Shown: positions 46,603 to 54,564, numbered from the stretch's first letter. The stretch: DNA of 64,000 nucleotides from Nitrosophilus kaiyonis (GCF_027943725.1 NZ_AP025696.1:1465501-1529500); one strand, 5' to 3'. The notes: generated by a model not told the origin, from the letters alone. Made by a program: numbers and translations.

Positions 46603-49179
46603 TTAAGGCTCATAATATAAAATCACTGGCTCAGAAAAGTTAGGCACATCATCATATGTAAAAACTGCATAATATTTTGCTATTTTTGTATTTCCAAATT
46701 TATCATATGTATAATTATCACGTCCAGCATAAAGTTTTACACCATCATATGGATTACGCGGTGGATGAAATCTATTTCTTACAACATAAGCTCCAACAAA
46801 ATCTTCATCTTTTGGATTTTCCCAAGTTAATTTCACCATATTTTTTTCAATTTTTGCTTTTAGATTTTTAATTTTATCTACAGGATTTTTTCTCTTTTTA
46901 ATATATTTTATAACCAGTTTTACAACATTTGGACTATTCTTATCAAACCAGTTTATAATATGATTTTTTGTAAAGGATGCTTTTGTTGGTCTTATTATAG
47001 ATGATGCAACTTGGTTTTTTTTATGTAGGTTTTCAAGCTCTATTTTGCTTGCACTATCAAAAAGAAAGTAACTTGTACTCTCTTTTTGTAACTCCTCTTC
47101 ACTTACTTCATAATCAATAAATCCCAAAGATTTTCTTTTTTGAATATTTTCATAATTTATATCTTTTAGATCCACAAACTCTATCAAATATCTTATATCT
47201 TCACCACTTTTTTTAATTCCTATATTGTGTATTTTTATATAAGACTCAGTTATAACTGTTTTATCAGCTTCAGGAAGAGTTGATAGGTCAAACTCCATAT
47301 ATCCATATACAACTTTTCCATCTTTATCAAATCCACAAGATAGGTTATCTACAACTATCTCTTTTTCATAAACTGTTGATAGATTGAGTGGTTCTATTTC
47401 AAGGGTTGTAGAAGGAATTGTATATTTTATATCAAGATGTGGCCTATAATGTATTCCTCCGCCAAAAGGACCATATCCCAAATCAAACATCATCATTTGA
47501 GAATCAGCTCCAAGAGGCAGCTTTTTTGGTCCTTGCATTCTAAAAATTACTTCGCCTTTTTTTATCTGCTCTTGTAATAGTTTTCTCTCATATTCATTAA
47601 AATTCCAAGTATTCCATATTCCTTGAGTTAGTTTTTGTGATGGAACAGTTTCGCCAAGTGTTTGGATAATTTTTGCATTATGAATAGATTCAAAATCGCT
47701 TAAATTTTTTATATCTTCTATAAAACTTATACTCCACTCTCCATACTTTTCTATTTTTACATTTACTCTATTTAATGGGTATAAACTAATTTTTGCCTCT
47801 TTAATAATTGCATTTTTTGGAATAGAGTTTAATTTGAATTTCATTACTCCATAACTAACCCCAAGCGTTTTATTTACTCCAACAAATAAAGAGTTTTTTC
47901 CAAAATGTTCAGGATTTTTAGTAGAGTTTTGAGCAACATAACCAATATCGTTTGGATTTGGAAAAATGTTTCTAAAAAACTCATCTCTTTCTAAATTTGT
48001 CATAACTTTTATTTGAGGAGCAAAAGGGCCTTTGATTTTAGTTAAGCTATCAACTGCTCTAATATAATAAAAATATAGTTTTCCACTCTCTCTATCTCTG
48101 TCTAAAAACTCCAAATTTTTTGTTGTTGCTATCAATGAGTGCTCACGGCATGATTCTTTATGCTCATCTGTTCTATATATTTCAAAATATACATCAGGAT
48201 AATTTTGTAAATCATAATCCCATTTTAAATGAACACAGTTGCTAATTACCTCTTTTATTGAAAAATTTTCTACTCTGGGTGGAGCGTTTTTTGAGTAGTT
48301 GTGAGCCTCATTTAATGCATATAAAAGTGCAGGAATATTCTCATCAATCGATTCACTCATATTTTGTAAGAAATCTGGAATATTTCTTGTTCCAACCTCT
48401 ACAACACTAGCTAAAATCCCTTTTGAATAGTAATACTCTCTTCCACTTCCACTTATAAGTTTTGCAGGAGGTTTTCCTCTGTGGATACCATATTTTCTTT
48501 TAGTAACTTTGCTTATTTCAAAATTCATATTTGCACATAAAACATTTAAATCTGTCCCTTCAATTTCTGCTTCGTGGTTAAATTTATGAGCTGGGAAAAA
48601 CACATTTCCTTGAGAGTGGTAATCAAGAGCAATAGTAATATTTGGATGAGAATCAACAAACTTTTTTATAGCTTTTGTTTCAGGCTCACTAAAAGGCTCA
48701 GGTCCTCCATAGATATTTGATGAATAGTTTGTGCTTTTTACCCATCCTACACTAAAATTTCTATTTAAATCCACACCATAACTTCCATCAGGATTTTTTC
48801 TTCTATTTTTTCTCCAAAATGAATAATGATTTCTTGAATACTCAAATCCATCTGGATTTAATACAGGAACGATATATAGAGTGTTTTTAGATAGAGCACT
48901 TATTACTCTTGGGTCTTTTTTATGATTTTTTAAAATATAATCTATAAAAGCAACCGCCAATTCATTTCCTATCCACTCTCTTGCATGAATTGTTCCTGTA
49001 TATAAAAGGGCTGGTTTTAAATCTGCAAACTCAACATCTAAGCTAATAGTTGCTAAAATAATATCTCTATTTTCCCAAGTTTTTCCTATACTTTGAATTT
49101 TTATAAGGTGTGGATACTCTTTTACTTTTTTTTCTAAAAAATCAATAGTGTCTTGGTATGATTTATATTGATGTTTCAA
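46603..49179 (-). CDS. M14 zinc carboxypeptidase with DNRLRE-like and Fn3-like domains
   Basis: An 858-residue protein. The M14 carboxypeptidase domain (1-300) has the zinc motif HARE (His65, Glu68), GVDLNRNF (Arg140), DYHSQG (His188) and the catalytic Glu261 in VVEVGT. A hand alignment puts Arg247 at the S1' pocket position, which would favour acidic C-terminal residues. Then come an Fn3-like domain (about 305-400), two DNRLRE-like beta domains (about 415-760) and a last Fn3-like domain (770-858). No signal peptide is seen, which is odd for such an architecture. The start is TTG with AAAAGGAG before it, inside the end of the ATP-grasp gene. Confidence 0.82.
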   Translation of the reverse strand: MKHQYKSYQDTIDFLEKKVKEYPHLIKIQSIGKTWENRDIILATISLDVEFADLKPALLYTGTIHAREWIGNELAVAFIDYILKNHKKDPRVISALSKNTLYIVPVLNPDGFEYSRNHYSFWRKNRRKNPDGSYGVDLNRNFSVGWVKSTNYSSNIYGGPEPFSEPETKAIKKFVDSHPNITIALDYHSQGNVFFPAHKFNHEAEIEGTDLNVLCANMNFEISKVTKRKYGIHRGKPPAKLISGSGREYYYSKGILASVVEVGTRNIPDFLQNMSESIDENIPALLYALNEAHNYSKNAPPRVENFSIKEVISNCVHLKWDYDLQNYPDVYFEIYRTDEHKESCREHSLIATTKNLEFLDRDRESGKLYFYYIRAVDSLTKIKGPFAPQIKVMTNLERDEFFRNIFPNPNDIGYVAQNSTKNPEHFGKNSLFVGVNKTLGVSYGVMKFKLNSIPKNAIIKEAKISLYPLNRVNVKIEKYGEWSISFIEDIKNLSDFESIHNAKIIQTLGETVPSQKLTQGIWNTWNFNEYERKLLQEQIKKGEVIFRMQGPKKLPLGADSQMMMFDLGYGPFGGGIHYRPHLDIKYTIPSTTLEIEPLNLSTVYEKEIVVDNLSCGFDKDGKVVYGYMEFDLSTLPEADKTVITESYIKIHNIGIKKSGEDIRYLIEFVDLKDINYENIQKRKSLGFIDYEVSEEELQKESTSYFLFDSASKIELENLHKKNQVASSIIRPTKASFTKNHIINWFDKNSPNVVKLVIKYIKKRKNPVDKIKNLKAKIEKNMVKLTWENPKDEDFVGAYVVRNRFHPPRNPYDGVKLYAGRDNYTYDKFGNTKIAKYYAVFTYDDVPNFSEPVILYYEP

Positions 49180-50590
49180 TTTTCTCCTTTTTAAATTCTT
49201 CCCAGGCTTTTAAAAGTTTTGAGAGAGTTTTATCCTTTATACCTTTAATCTCTAATAAACTATCTGGATTATTATCAAGTTCAAAAGCTATATTAAAAGC
49301 ATCAATTTGCTCTAAAATTTTTTTATATTTTTTCTTACCAAGACTCTCTTTCAAAAACTCTTTAATATCTTCTTCAGTATAGTTTATAGGCTCCTCATCA
49401 CTTACCTCTTCAAAAATATGCTCTTCGCTAGATTGCAGTCTTGCTTTTTTTTCTTTTTTTGGTTTTTCATTCCAAAAGCCTTTGCATTTTTTTGTAAAAT
49501 CATACTTTTCACTTGGCCACTCTTCATAATCTCTATCTTCAGTATTGAGCATAGGATACTCTTCATCAAGCTCCCATATTTTATGAGTCTCTCCGCTCTC
49601 ATCCATTTTTTGTTTATTTAAAAAGTATGCTCCATCAAAACTTGGCGTATATCTTCCAAAAGTTATATATCTCATTGTTCTAAGAAGCGAGCTATCTATC
49701 TTTCCAAGCTCTTCCCAGTTATAAACAGGAATATTTGGCTTTGGAAATCTACCATTACTTAGTTTCCACATCAAATATTGCCCTATCCAATCTCTAATAT
49801 ATGGAAATGCAGCAAATGCAGTAGCACACTCAAGTATTCTATATTTACCATCCTCTTTTCCAACGGCTATATCACAAGCCCAATACTCTGCATTTGCAGC
49901 TTTGCTAACCTTTACAGCCAGATCCAAAACCCCTTTTGGAACATCCATATAATCCATACTGCCGCCTTGGCTTGTATTTGTCAGCCAGTGCCCTTTTGGA
50001 GGTCTTCTCCAAAATGCGCAAACCGGTTTATGTCCGATTAACATCACTCTAATATCTGCACTCATAGGAACAAAATCTTGAACATAAATTGGACAATATT
50101 TTTTACTCTCTAAAAGCTCTTTAGCCTCTTCAAAACTGTCAACCTTATGTACATAATATCCACCATAGTTGCTTGGACCATAACTTCTTTTTATAATTTT
50201 TGGATATGTTGTATTTTTTAAAAACTCCATCCCCTCTTTTTTATCATAAAAGATATAGGTTTTTGGCACCGGAATATCATATTTCCAACAAAATCTTGTA
50301 ACATTTTCTTTACTTTTATTGGCAAACTGTGCATCAAGGCTTGGGATAAATCTTACGTTTGGAAGCTCTCTAGCAATTTTTCTAAAGGTCTCATATGCCG
50401 TTGCTGGAATATTTCCAATTAAAACATCAATCTTTTTCTTCTTCACCTCTTTTATAAATCGCTCTTCATCACCTTTCCAGTGATAGACAACTGTCTCTAT
50501 TTTATCCGGCCAACCTCTAAAGTTGCTCCTATCAAAAAATCTAAGCACATAATCTAGATATAATAGCCCTATTTTAGGAAGCTTTTTCAT
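49163..50590 (-). CDS. RimK-like ATP-grasp protein fused to a helix-hairpin-helix
   Basis: A 475-residue ATP-grasp protein. The N-terminal Rossmann-like part (1-95) precedes the ATP-grasp fold: YPKIIKRSYGPSNYGG, VQDFVPMSADIRVM, the RimK-like HWLTNTSQGGS and metal residues Asp240 (ACDIAV) and Glu254 (ILECATAF). The usual ExN metal Asn is absent (Glu-Cys-Ala). A linker rich in Lys/Glu leads to a helix-hairpin-helix (DSLLEIKGIKDKTLSKLL, 444-461), normally a DNA-binding or protein-docking unit. It overlaps the second ATP-grasp gene (ATGA) upstream and the M14 gene by 17 bases. The ligated substrates are unknown. Confidence 0.8.
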   Translation of the reverse strand: MKKLPKIGLLYLDYVLRFFDRSNFRGWPDKIETVVYHWKGDEERFIKEVKKKKIDVLIGNIPATAYETFRKIARELPNVRFIPSLDAQFANKSKENVTRFCWKYDIPVPKTYIFYDKKEGMEFLKNTTYPKIIKRSYGPSNYGGYYVHKVDSFEEAKELLESKKYCPIYVQDFVPMSADIRVMLIGHKPVCAFWRRPPKGHWLTNTSQGGSMDYMDVPKGVLDLAVKVSKAANAEYWACDIAVGKEDGKYRILECATAFAAFPYIRDWIGQYLMWKLSNGRFPKPNIPVYNWEELGKIDSSLLRTMRYITFGRYTPSFDGAYFLNKQKMDESGETHKIWELDEEYPMLNTEDRDYEEWPSEKYDFTKKCKGFWNEKPKKEKKARLQSSEEHIFEEVSDEEPINYTEEDIKEFLKESLGKKKYKKILEQIDAFNIAFELDNNPDSLLEIKGIKDKTLSKLLKAWEEFKKEKIETSI

Positions 50591-51489
50591 TTTTTATCCT
50601 TTATTTTTTTATTTATCAATTCAACTATTTTTTCTATTTTTTTATCATTAAAATTTAAACCCAATTTTTCTTGTTCTGGAGTTGCAAATGCAGGAATTCC
50701 ATTTACCTCTAAAACAACATACTCTTCATGCTCTCTATCATAAATAATATCTACCCCTGCAATTTCGATATTTAGCGCTTTTGCAGCTCTTTTTGCTAAA
50801 TTAATTACCTCTTCATCGCAATCTCTTACAATAACACTTCCTCCACTTGTAACATTGGTTCTCCAATCACCTTTTTTTGCTTTTCTTCCATAACAAGCAA
50901 TAAATTCTCCATCAACTAAATCTACTCTAAAATCACTACCATCATAATCAATAAACTTTTCTATATAGAAAAATCTCAAATCTGTCTGATTTAAAAAAGG
51001 TAAAATCATATCAAGTTTATCTTTACTATCAACAAGAGCCATTCCTAAACCGCCCCATCCGTCAACAGTTTTAAAAACAGCTTTTCCCCATTCTAAAACT
51101 TTGTTTCGAATAGTTTCTATATCTTCTCTATGGCATAAAAAATAGTCTGCTGTTTTAATACCATTTTTTCTTAATATATCATTTGTTTTAAATTTATCTT
51201 CACTGATACTAAATGCACTAAAATTATTAATACATGTGATATGCTTATCTAACTGTTCATACATGTATACTTGATATTTTGTCTGCTCACCTGCGTTATA
51301 ACTAAAAAAGCAGTCAAGCTCATACATATTTATTCCATTTAATAATATTTTTCCATTTTCCGCTATGGCATATCGTAAATTTAATCCTGTAAATACTTTA
51401 TGAGAATAATCTTGGAGTCTATTTACAAGCTTTTTTTGAATAATATCTCCTCCCCCATTTTGATACATCCATATGCCAACATTTGCCAT
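50587..51489 (-). CDS. RimK-like ATP-grasp ligase
   Basis: A 300-residue ATP-grasp enzyme of the RimK/glutathione-synthetase-like group, which joins a carboxylate to an amine with ATP. ATP-binding Lys and Gly loop are in AVFKTVDGWGGLGM (137-150). DFRVDLVDGEF, KGDWRTNVTSGGS and the metal triad Asp247 (AGVDII), Glu261 and Asn263 (LEVNGIPAF) are all intact. It looks fully active, unlike its larger neighbour. It heads the operon with the ATP-grasp-HhH and M14 genes. AAAGGAT precedes the ATG. Substrate unknown; glutamate is a guess from the family and the peptidases beside it. Confidence 0.85.
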   Translation of the reverse strand: MANVGIWMYQNGGGDIIQKKLVNRLQDYSHKVFTGLNLRYAIAENGKILLNGINMYELDCFFSYNAGEQTKYQVYMYEQLDKHITCINNFSAFSISEDKFKTNDILRKNGIKTADYFLCHREDIETIRNKVLEWGKAVFKTVDGWGGLGMALVDSKDKLDMILPFLNQTDLRFFYIEKFIDYDGSDFRVDLVDGEFIACYGRKAKKGDWRTNVTSGGSVIVRDCDEEVINLAKRAAKALNIEIAGVDIIYDREHEEYVVLEVNGIPAFATPEQEKLGLNFNDKKIEKIVELINKKIKDKK

Positions 51490-51513
51490 ATAAATCCTTT
51501 AAGATTTTTTTCT

Positions 51514-51520
51514 TATAATA
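51514..51520. promoter_or_regulatory. Divergent promoter core between ATP-grasp operon and M20 gene
   Basis: TATAAT at 51514-51519 on the plus strand lies 31 bases upstream of the M20 ATG and follows a T-rich run, a common form of Campylobacterota sigma70 promoter. The same bases read TATTAT on the minus strand, 25 bases from the ATP-grasp ATG. With only 61 bases between the two genes, the promoters must overlap, so the two sides are probably regulated together. Confidence 0.45.
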
Positions 51521-51550
51521 CTTAAAATGATATTTAAAAAGGTTTAAAGT

Positions 51551-52630
51551 ATGTATGATTTTAGTGAATTAGCTGAACTTATAAATATAAACTCATATAC
51601 AAAAAATAAAGATGGAGTTGATAAAAATGGACAAATAATGAGAGAAAAGTTTGAAAAACTTGGATTTAAAACAACTGTTTATAAAAGAGAAAATATTGGA
51701 AATCATCTTCTTTTTCAATCTCCAAAAAAAGATGGAAAAAAAATGCTTTTACTTGGTCATTTAGATACTGTATTTCCGCTTGGAAGTTTTGAAGAGTTTA
51801 GTGAAGATGAAGAGTGGATTTATGGGCCTGGGGTTTGCGATATGAAAGGCGGAAATATGGTTATGGTTGAAGCGTTAAGAAGGCAGAAGGAAATTTTTAA
51901 TATAGATGTTTTGCTTGTTAGTGATGAAGAGACAGGAAGTGAGGATTCAAAAAATCTTACATATAATTTAGCGAAAAATTACGATTACTGTTTAGTTTTT
52001 GAAGCTGCTGGAAAGAATGATGAGATAGTTACCGCAAGAAAAGGAATAGCAACATTTTATATAGATATAATTGGAAAAGCTGCTCATGCTGGAAACTGCT
52101 ATACTCAAGGAGCAGATGCAAATCAAGAAGCAGCTCATAAGATTTTAGCACTTTCTCATTTAACAGATTTAAATAATCATACAACTGTAAATGTTGGGAA
52201 AATTGAGGGTGGAATTGGAGCAAATACTATAAGTCCATATGCAAAATTGATTTGTGAAGCAAGATTTGTAAGTGCTAAAGAGAGAGATAGAGTCTTTGAT
52301 GAGATAAATGAGATAGTTAACACATCTTTTATTAAAGATACAAATTCTACATTAAGTGGCGGACTTCAAAGAGATGTTATGGAAGAAACTAGTGAGCAGT
52401 TAAATTTTATAAAAAAGTTAGAAAAATGGAGTGGAAAGAAACTACTCACAGAAAAAAGAGGCGGAGGAAGTGATGCAAACATTGCAGCCAGTGCTGGATG
52501 TATTACTTTAGATGGATTTGGTCCATATGGAGATGGAGATCATACTATTCATGAAAGAGCAAGCAAAAAAAGTTATATTGATAGAATAGAATTAGTTAGT
52601 AAAATATTTTCAGAATTTATAAAAAATTAA
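51551..52630 (+). CDS. M20 family carboxypeptidase, glutamate carboxypeptidase-like
   Basis: A 359-residue M20 metallopeptidase closest by eye to carboxypeptidase G2. Metal ligands and base are in LLGHLDTVFP, GPGVCDMKGGN and SDEETGSED. The dimer/lid domain follows with TARKGIATF, GKAAHAGN and ANTISP. The final RGGGSDANIAA and DGDHTIHERA complete the active site. CPG2-type enzymes remove C-terminal glutamate from folates or peptides. No signal peptide is seen, so it acts in the cytoplasm. It is divergent from the two ATP-grasp and M14 genes over a shared 61-base promoter region. Confidence 0.87.
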   Translation: MYDFSELAELININSYTKNKDGVDKNGQIMREKFEKLGFKTTVYKRENIGNHLLFQSPKKDGKKMLLLGHLDTVFPLGSFEEFSEDEEWIYGPGVCDMKGGNMVMVEALRRQKEIFNIDVLLVSDEETGSEDSKNLTYNLAKNYDYCLVFEAAGKNDEIVTARKGIATFYIDIIGKAAHAGNCYTQGADANQEAAHKILALSHLTDLNNHTTVNVGKIEGGIGANTISPYAKLICEARFVSAKERDRVFDEINEIVNTSFIKDTNSTLSGGLQRDVMEETSEQLNFIKKLEKWSGKKLLTEKRGGGSDANIAASAGCITLDGFGPYGDGDHTIHERASKKSYIDRIELVSKIFSEFIKN

Positions 52631-52701: not shown

Positions 52702-54564
52702 ATGGGGGTTGATATTAAAGGTTTTATAAAAAAAGAGATAAAAAAAGAGTATTTTAGATTTTGGATAGTAAAGAAAAATTGGAAATTTCTTTATAAAGGG
52801 TTAAAATCACTTCTTAAAAATAAGCCAAAAGCAGGTGAACTGGAAGAATTTGGTAAAGAGTGTTATGAAAACTCTATTCCTTTTGGAGAGATTTCAATTT
52901 TTTTAGATATTTTTTCCAAAAAGCTAAGTGAAAATGAGAAAAAAAATCTTGATAAAAACAAAAATAGTTTTGCAAAAGGGTATATTGATGCAAGACTTCC
53001 AAATGAAATAATAAATTTTACAAATCAAGTTCACAATAATGGAATTTTTGTATCAAAAGATAAAATTATTATCTCAAAATATTTGACTTTCTGGCTTATA
53101 GAGTTTATAGAGCATATTTTATATCATACACCTGCTCCAGAAACTTCGGAAAAGAAAAGCGATTTTGGCAAATGGCTAAAAGAGTATAAAGGTGTATATT
53201 TTGATGATGAAAAGATAAAAAAACATTTTATAACTCTTAGCTCGTCAATGCATCATACAGCTGCGGATGCAATATTTTTTTATCATGAAAAAGAATATTT
53301 TTATTTTGTTTTGTTATATCTTGATATGCTCTCTTTTGCGCTTCAATTGCAAGGACTTTTAAGTTCACTGTTTCTTGAGGAAAAACTTCTATCTTTATAT
53401 ATTGATCCAGTTACTGAAATTCCAAATAGATTTCAACTTCAAAAAGATTTTAAAATTTTTAAAAATCCAACTCTGCTTTTGGTAAATATTAGAGATTTTT
53501 CTAAAATAAATGCAATTTATGGAAATAGATTTGGAGATAGTGTATTAAAAATAGTTGCTAAATTTATTGAAACATTAGATATTATAAAAGTTTATAGAAT
53601 TTTTGCAGATGAGTTTGCTATTCTTGTAGACAGTGATAAACTCGCAAAAAAAGTATTTAATGATCTTGATGAGAAAATTGTTTTAAAAGAGATAGGATAT
53701 ACAGTCTCTTTTTATGGTGCATATAAAAAATTGAGTGAAACTGCTCTTGAAGAGTGTGAATATGCTCTAATTAATGCTAAAGAGAAAAAACTTGTTAATG
53801 CTGATGAGATAAAAGATTTGATAAACCAATACAAAAATGAACTCTCTTTAACTAATATTTTAAAAGCATCTTTAACAACCGATTCAGTTGTCCCATTTTT
53901 TCAGCCGATATTTGATTATAAAAAAGGTAAGATTAATAAATATGAGTGTTTAATGAGAGTTATTGAAAAAGATAAAATATTAAATCCAGGCCAATTTTTA
54001 GATGATTTAAAAAAGATGCCAATCTATTCAGAATATACTAAAACAATATTAAATAAAAGTTTTGAAACATTTAAAAATACAAAATATGAATTTTCAGTAA
54101 ATTTTTCTGTTTTAGATATAGAAAATATGTACACTGTTTCTTATTTAAAAGCTTTAATAAAGCAGTATCCAGAAGTTGCAAATAGATTAACAATTGAGAT
54201 AACTGAATCAGAAGCCATTAAAAACTATAAAACTATTAACAATTTTATAAAAGAGATTAAAAATTACGGAGTAAAAATTTCTTTGGATGATTTTGGTACA
54301 GGATTTTCAAATTTTTCACAGATATCAAAGCTTGATTTAGATTATGTAAAAATTGATGGGTCTATAATTTCAAATATTTTAAATGATGATAAAGTGAAAA
54401 AAATATTTTATTCTATTTTAGATCTTGCAAAAAGTATGAATTTAAAAACGGTTGCTGAATTTGTATCTGATAAAGAGATTTTTGAATTTTTAAAAGATAG
54501 TGATGTTGATTTGGCTCAAGGATATTTTATAGGAAAACCTGAGCCAAAATTACAAGAGAATTAG
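52702..54564 (+). CDS. Degenerate-GGDEF/EAL protein, probable c-di-GMP phosphodiesterase
   Basis: A 620-residue soluble protein. Residues 1-230 are helical. About 120-195 resembles a CZB zinc-sensor domain (SDFGKWLKEY, SMHHTAADAI), but the usual Cys is Ser153. The GGDEF domain (232-380) has FADEF at 301-305, so it should not make c-di-GMP. The EAL domain (385-620) keeps its catalytic set: Glu415 in YECLMR, Asn in SVNFSV, EITES, DDFGTG and the Lys in VKIDGS. It therefore probably degrades c-di-GMP. A GGAAGGA site precedes the ATG. Confidence 0.86.
   Translation: MGVDIKGFIKKEIKKEYFRFWIVKKNWKFLYKGLKSLLKNKPKAGELEEFGKECYENSIPFGEISIFLDIFSKKLSENEKKNLDKNKNSFAKGYIDARLPNEIINFTNQVHNNGIFVSKDKIIISKYLTFWLIEFIEHILYHTPAPETSEKKSDFGKWLKEYKGVYFDDEKIKKHFITLSSSMHHTAADAIFFYHEKEYFYFVLLYLDMLSFALQLQGLLSSLFLEEKLLSLYIDPVTEIPNRFQLQKDFKIFKNPTLLLVNIRDFSKINAIYGNRFGDSVLKIVAKFIETLDIIKVYRIFADEFAILVDSDKLAKKVFNDLDEKIVLKEIGYTVSFYGAYKKLSETALEECEYALINAKEKKLVNADEIKDLINQYKNELSLTNILKASLTTDSVVPFFQPIFDYKKGKINKYECLMRVIEKDKILNPGQFLDDLKKMPIYSEYTKTILNKSFETFKNTKYEFSVNFSVLDIENMYTVSYLKALIKQYPEVANRLTIEITESEAIKNYKTINNFIKEIKNYGVKISLDDFGTGFSNFSQISKLDLDYVKIDGSIISNILNDDKVKKIFYSILDLAKSMNLKTVAEFVSDKEIFEFLKDSDVDLAQGYFIGKPEPKLQEN

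Follow-up and report, generated by a model that had tools for sequence, protein, structure and literature searches.

A set of four genes in Nitrosophilus kaiyonis, encoding two ATP-grasp proteins of the RimK superfamily (L1 and L2) and two metallopeptidases (M14 and M20), is, as judged by sequence comparison, inherited together and transferred intact between families and phyla. We tentatively propose, at somewhat less than an even chance of being right, that this set is a cytoplasmic, self-contained and horizontally moving writer-eraser module for acidic amino acids that works as RimK and RimB do. It is the one reading to draw on every line of evidence, and its main rival is a pathway that acts on a free peptide or a cofactor.

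The set occupies positions 46603-52630 of the window, the 64,000-nucleotide stretch analyzed here, which comes from a genome represented by a single 1.77 Mb contig. Three overlapping genes lie on the minus strand, namely, M14 (46603-49179, 858 aa, with a TTG start), L2 (49163-50590, 475 aa, overlapping M14 by 17 bases) and L1 (50587-51489, 300 aa, overlapping L2 by 4 bases). M20 (51551-52630, plus strand, 359 aa) diverges from L1 across a 61-base intergenic gap (51490-51550, assigned to no strand). The ORF calls reproduce the coordinates and strands, the overlaps and the divergent gap given in the first-pass annotation of this DNA. The gene classes that it named are confirmed by Pfam, with Peptidase_M14 at 1e-55, RimK at 5e-12 and 1e-23 for the two ligases, and M20 together with M20_dimer for the M20 gene, whereas the Fn3 and DNRLRE beta domains of M14 and a missing metal-binding Asn in L2 had been overlooked. 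NCBIfam and Pfam jointly assign the expected enzyme classes to all four genes. L1, L2 and M20 fall below the curated cut-offs of the matching NCBIfam models, so that none of them receives a ready-made name; the nearest named relatives of L2 come from Nitratiruptor MAGs. The 61-base gap had also been taken for a promoter, but the number of promoter-like sites in it is no higher than chance (2 observed vs 2.1 expected), and no structured RNA was found.

Directly after M20 lies a GGDEF-EAL gene (52702-54564, plus strand). In Pseudomonas, the EAL protein RimA is a regulator of RimK. The GGDEF-EAL neighbor was considered as a RimA-like part of the set and rejected because related genes are found near only a few of the modules.

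The four genes recur together. In a census of 249 Campylobacterota genomes chosen to cover the phylum evenly, L2 is present in 23 genomes (including a fragment in G037), M14 in 22, and orthologs of L1 and M20 in 22 and 23, respectively; additional matches at about 32% identity were counted as paralogs and excluded. All four, mostly side by side, occur in 21 of the 24 genomes that carry an intact ortholog of any part, and the complete set is found in families f1, f4, f7, f8, f10 and f11. The exceptions are G218, with L2 and M14 only, G061, with M20 only, and G105, in which M20 and L1 are on a 4 kb contig. In G009 and G129, L2 resides elsewhere in the chromosome, apart from the other three genes. 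The subsets in G218 and G061 and the relocated L2 indicate that the parts are partly separable. G037 retains a broken, 100-residue L2 remnant (C1:157167-157466) with two stops in the matched stretch, and this genome yielded none of the other three genes; in its genus-mates G009 and G129, L2 is located at the place that corresponds to this remnant.

Two layouts recur at these loci, one with a divergent M20 and the other a co-directional M20-L1-L2-M14 operon in which the genes overlap or nearly touch. A scan of genome contigs yielded 80 further loci; all four genes lie within 9 kb in 76 of 107 loci (67 divergent and 9 co-directional), and the rest are mostly cut by contig ends. Clustering of all neighboring ORFs shows that the four genes are the only ones shared across families. 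Within one lineage only, 14 Sulfurovum-type loci (e.g., L067:13598-15004) share a gene just downstream of M14, and the member of this group that was scanned encodes a 468-residue repeat protein of the LRV/DUF2336 type.

The set of genome G096 is 85% identical to that of the window in L2, 83% in M14, 84% in L1 and 78% in M20, higher than the 74% identity of PurL, a protein for which the identity within family f1 is 89-92%; this excess implies that the set moves as a block. The absence of the set from close relatives, such as G029, in which PurL is 92% identical, marks it as accessory. All four genes are also found in the gammaproteobacterium Photobacterium sp. DA100, where their order and divergent arrangement are the same and identity is about 46-59%. 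The correlation of pairwise distances among L2, M14 and M20 is r=0.87-0.89, and that of pairs with L1 is 0.64-0.82, in all cases with the contribution of shared ancestry included. The first-pass annotation had named confinement of the set to the nearest relatives as an outcome that would refute its interpretation; what is found is a set present across families and in a second phylum and apparently transferred as a block. Carriage by viruses was rejected, as viral contigs gave 92 pattern matches but no relative. The only viral likeness lies in cyanophage records, among them KU594606.1 and KU686203.1, whose RimK-like proteins are distant and bear the annotation ribosomal protein S6 glutaminyl transferase.

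L1 is a RimK-superfamily ATP-grasp ligase with a complete catalytic core (K140, R188, R202, N212, D247, E261 and N263), and the ATP-grasp catalytic Lys, Arg, Asn, Asp, Glu and Asn are invariant in 99 L1 sequences. Its best matches are glutamate ligases of the RimK/MptN type, at scores below the cut-offs of the respective models (127.7 bits vs 143.4 for TIGR00768 and 64.8 bits vs 331 for NF007764). In RimK, the polyglutamate chain is held by S7, R8 and R64 (PMC10092738). Equivalents of these residues are absent from both L1 and L2 in an alignment that is weak in the N-terminal part, suggesting that the acceptor should differ from S6.

L2 is a divergent RimK-like ATP-grasp protein that combines a conserved N-terminal domain with a variable C-terminal helix-hairpin-helix (HhH) tail. 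It scores 77 bits on the RimK-family model TIGR00768 and 15.9 bits on the S6-ligase model NF007764, both below cut-off, and its best structure matches are ArgX and LysX; the structural model is of low confidence (pLDDT 65) and is used here for the ATP-grasp fold only. The first 330 residues are highly conserved across families. The third and last metal-binding Asn is replaced by Ala in 103 of 103 sequences (E-C-A in place of E-x-N), with the other RimK catalytic residues kept. L2 may be inactive as a ligase, but we do not conclude that it is a dead enzyme because a PurT-like ATP-grasp protein of the same genome reads E-V-S where L2 reads E-C-A, and PurT is an active ATP-grasp enzyme. The tail (alignment columns 400-559) varies among families, from a single HhH unit to a ComEA-like tandem. 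The window protein matches the HhH noted in the first pass only weakly (HHH_5, E=0.025), and the motif is better seen in its relatives, with HHH_5 in 14 of 21 and HHH_3 in seven (best 4e-27).

M14 is an M14A zinc carboxypeptidase (PF00246, 190 bits) without a signal or propeptide, in which the catalytic domain is followed by Fn3- and DNRLRE-like beta domains. The M14A signature is present (the HxxE...H zinc site and the equivalents of Arg127, Asn144-Arg145 and Glu270), with the zinc ligands H65, E68 and H188 and the catalytic E261; these four residues, together with R126, N139 and R140, are invariant in all readable sequences among 87. The catalytic domain stands at the very start of the protein in 22 of 22 relatives with no hydrophobic leader, so that the absence of a signal peptide, noted previously for the window, holds over this group as judged from start positions and a rough hydropathy check. 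A DNRLRE match is found in all 22 relatives and Fn3 in two, and the model and domain matches together show that the region C-terminal to the catalytic domain is a long train of beta domains. The structural model is confident overall (mean pLDDT 84.8) and weaker around residues 236-243, next to the active site.

The specificity of A/B-type carboxypeptidases is set by residue 255, which is hydrophobic in CPA, Asp in CPB and Arg in carboxypeptidase O (CPO), the latter with an acidic preference, and frog Cpo.1, with Arg at this position, cleaves a Glu-Glu substrate (PMC9925722). CPO is active without a prodomain (PMC6214572). A profile alignment with CPA4 places R247 of M14 at the position of CPA Ile255, putatively the acid-type S1' residue seen in CPO, and Arg is found there in 86 of 86 readable relatives; the S1' pocket of M14 is predicted to be acid-selective. 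Position 255 is not the sole determinant of specificity, and the equivalent of CPA Tyr248 varies among the relatives, which calls for caution.

M20 has carboxypeptidase G2 (CPG2) as its best solved-structure match (7e-41), in line with the resemblance noted in the first pass, and retains the metal-binding and catalytic residues H70, D97, E126, E127, E151 and H331. It reaches 197 bits vs the 349-bit cut-off of the NCBIfam glutamate carboxypeptidase model and matches [LysW]-lysine hydrolase weakly (1e-13). The known substrate of CPG2 is a small glutamyl compound.

The remainder of the genome was searched for partners and acceptors. Its other matches to the RimK model are, by inspection, a glutathione-synthetase-like protein, a biotin-carboxylase-like protein, PurT and PurD, and the genome yielded neither a canonical RimK nor a further ligase of this RimK-type class. 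RimB (PF05618) has no match in the genome at E<=1. A LysW-type carrier was rejected, the best genome match to TIGR01206 (E 0.06) being below cut-off. The S6 protein of N. kaiyonis ends in ...QKTQEAAS, that is, not in Glu, and S6 was dismissed as the target because its C-termini show no consistent difference between genomes that carry the set and those that do not. No short ORF conserved across families, as expected of a precursor or carrier, was found in the gaps or in the 1.5 kb flanks, which implies that the acceptor is either encoded elsewhere or a small molecule. A role in anti-phage defense was discarded as none of the four proteins matches a PADLOC model.

Under the proposed writer-eraser mechanism, L1, helped by L2, would use ATP to attach amino acids, Glu most probably and perhaps Asp, to the C-terminus of a protein or peptide acceptor that is intracellular and encoded elsewhere. 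L2, which has an N-terminal domain of its own, the HhH tail and a changed metal site, could be either a second ligase or a partner that selects the acceptor. M14, with its acid-selective S1' pocket, would trim the added residues off, and the CPG2-like M20 would remove the last residue or split the short peptides that are released. We infer that the four proteins share a substrate and that the ligases and peptidases act in these respective directions in vivo, so that the tag could be written and removed again, as with RimK and RimB. Of the make-and-trim interpretation put forward in the first pass, the conserved four-gene unit stands, and its guess of glutamate gains on the peptidase side, where the invariant Arg of M14 and the CPG2-like M20 point to acidic residues. 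S6, the classical target of RimK, is unsupported. In a bolder form, which we consider quite doubtful, the set would be a so far unrecognized, transferable protein-tagging system and a bacterial counterpart of the polyglutamylation code of eukaryotes, in which a writer of two RimK-like subunits, catalytic L1 and L2 as an HhH adaptor with an altered metal site, attaches acidic residues to a protein associated with the chromosome or the ribosome, with M14 as the CPO-like cytosolic eraser.

The principal alternative is that L1 and L2 make a short free peptide (for osmoprotection, storage or stress) or extend a cofactor, which M14 and M20 degrade or recycle, with no protein target. An acceptor protein or precursor gene never travels with the set, M20 is of the CPG2 kind, with a small glutamyl substrate, the two ligases might add two different residues, and the marine and vent distribution evident from record titles would suit an osmolyte. 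In contrast, an 858-residue M14 with binding-type beta domains and an L2 with an HhH tail look made for macromolecules, features that would favor a macromolecular partner, and we know of no metabolite that fits; on balance, we regard this alternative as somewhat unlikely. It is improbable that the genes form a loose peptide-salvage neighborhood, with unrelated substrates, kept together by chance or shared transfer. One operon need not mean one substrate, and the subsets in G061 and G218 and the relocated L2 in G009 and G129 are as expected under such looseness; however, both layouts recur in unlinked chromosomal contexts in many genera, the gene overlaps are frequent, the distances are correlated as given above and the block appears to have passed intact over families and phyla.

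Two further pathways are suggested by the ligases themselves. If the set belonged to an amino-group carrier pathway of the LysX/LysW/LysK kind, the ligase would load the C-terminal Glu of the carrier and M20 would release the product. Although the LysX model matches L1 (1e-28) and L2 (3e-21), the best structures for L2 are ArgX and LysX, and M20 bears its weak similarity to [LysW]-lysine hydrolase, all these scores are far under the curated cut-offs, LysW is missing from the genome at its own cut-off, no small conserved ORF lies beside the set and M14 has no role in such a pathway, which makes this assignment very improbable. A graspetide-like cassette, in which ligases modify a ribosomal precursor peptide and peptidases trim its end, has an equally small probability. 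ATP-grasp ligases are paired with peptidases in graspetide clusters (PMC8939145), and the set is mobile and patchy; yet the 1.5 kb flanks contain no precursor ORF shared across families, the overlap of the genes in many members leaves no room for one, a conserved exporter gene is absent from the loci and L1 and L2 fit RimK/LysX far better than the MvdC/MvdD models.

Compared with known systems, the proposed writer-eraser module is closest in logic to RimABK, which polyglutamylates ribosomal protein S6. RimK and the eraser RimB are an established, co-transcribed pair (PMC12239564). The likeness is that of a cytoplasmic RimK-superfamily ligase linked in an operon to a peptidase that removes the product of the ligase. 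Unlike RimABK, however, the set has two ligases rather than one, and its erasers are M14A and M20 metallopeptidases rather than an aspartic protease; furthermore, RimB is missing from the host genome, whose S6 has a C-terminal residue other than Glu, and the RimK acceptor residues are not kept. Given ligase scores below the curated cut-off, no match for a RimB partner and an S6 without the C-terminal acceptor Glu, we do not file the set as a member of the RimK family. On a plasmid of Salinivibrio proteolyticus (L201:1-1437), rimK has a RimB-type gene ("ATP-dependent zinc protease") on one side and a gene of the succinylglutamate desuccinylase/aspartoacylase family on the other, so that a classical rim locus, too, can flank its ligase with two hydrolases; the latter family has an M14-clan fold.

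Tubulin polyglutamylation likewise combines an ATP-dependent glutamate ligase (TTLL) with a cytosolic M14 deglutamylase (CCP) (PMC9117372, PMC3620535). That system is eukaryotic, and its CCPs fall into a different M14 subfamily, which carries an N-terminal domain of its own, whereas the M14 of the set has a catalytic domain of the CPA/CPO type that begins at residue 1. With the M14A enzyme CPO it shares the CPA/B-type domain, the Arg at 255 and the lack of a prodomain (PMC9925722, PMC6214572), and it differs in being cytoplasmic by sequence, in the added Fn3 and DNRLRE domains and in the non-conserved Tyr248. The LysX/ArgX-LysW-LysK systems also join a RimK-type ligase to an M20 hydrolase, but the set is devoid of carrier and biosynthetic genes and contains, in addition, M14 and a second ligase. 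M20 shares its metal and catalytic residues with CPG2 and, unlike CPG2, has no signal peptide and falls below the glutamate carboxypeptidase cut-off. The writer-eraser logic is thus already known; no description of the exact gene set, or of this enzyme combination, its doubled ligase and its CPO-like cytosolic eraser, was found in the open-access literature searched, outside of which lies the Iyer 2009 amidoligase survey that may mention the neighborhood.

In bacteria, RimK and RimB are the main known example of amino acids being reversibly attached to completed proteins or peptides. The strict four-gene make-up, the absence of a canonical RimK and the predicted acidic specificity make the proposal testable with four cloned genes. 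If it is correct, the existence of a mobile set that is independent and uses other erasers would show that such regulation has more than one evolutionary origin and spreads as one block.
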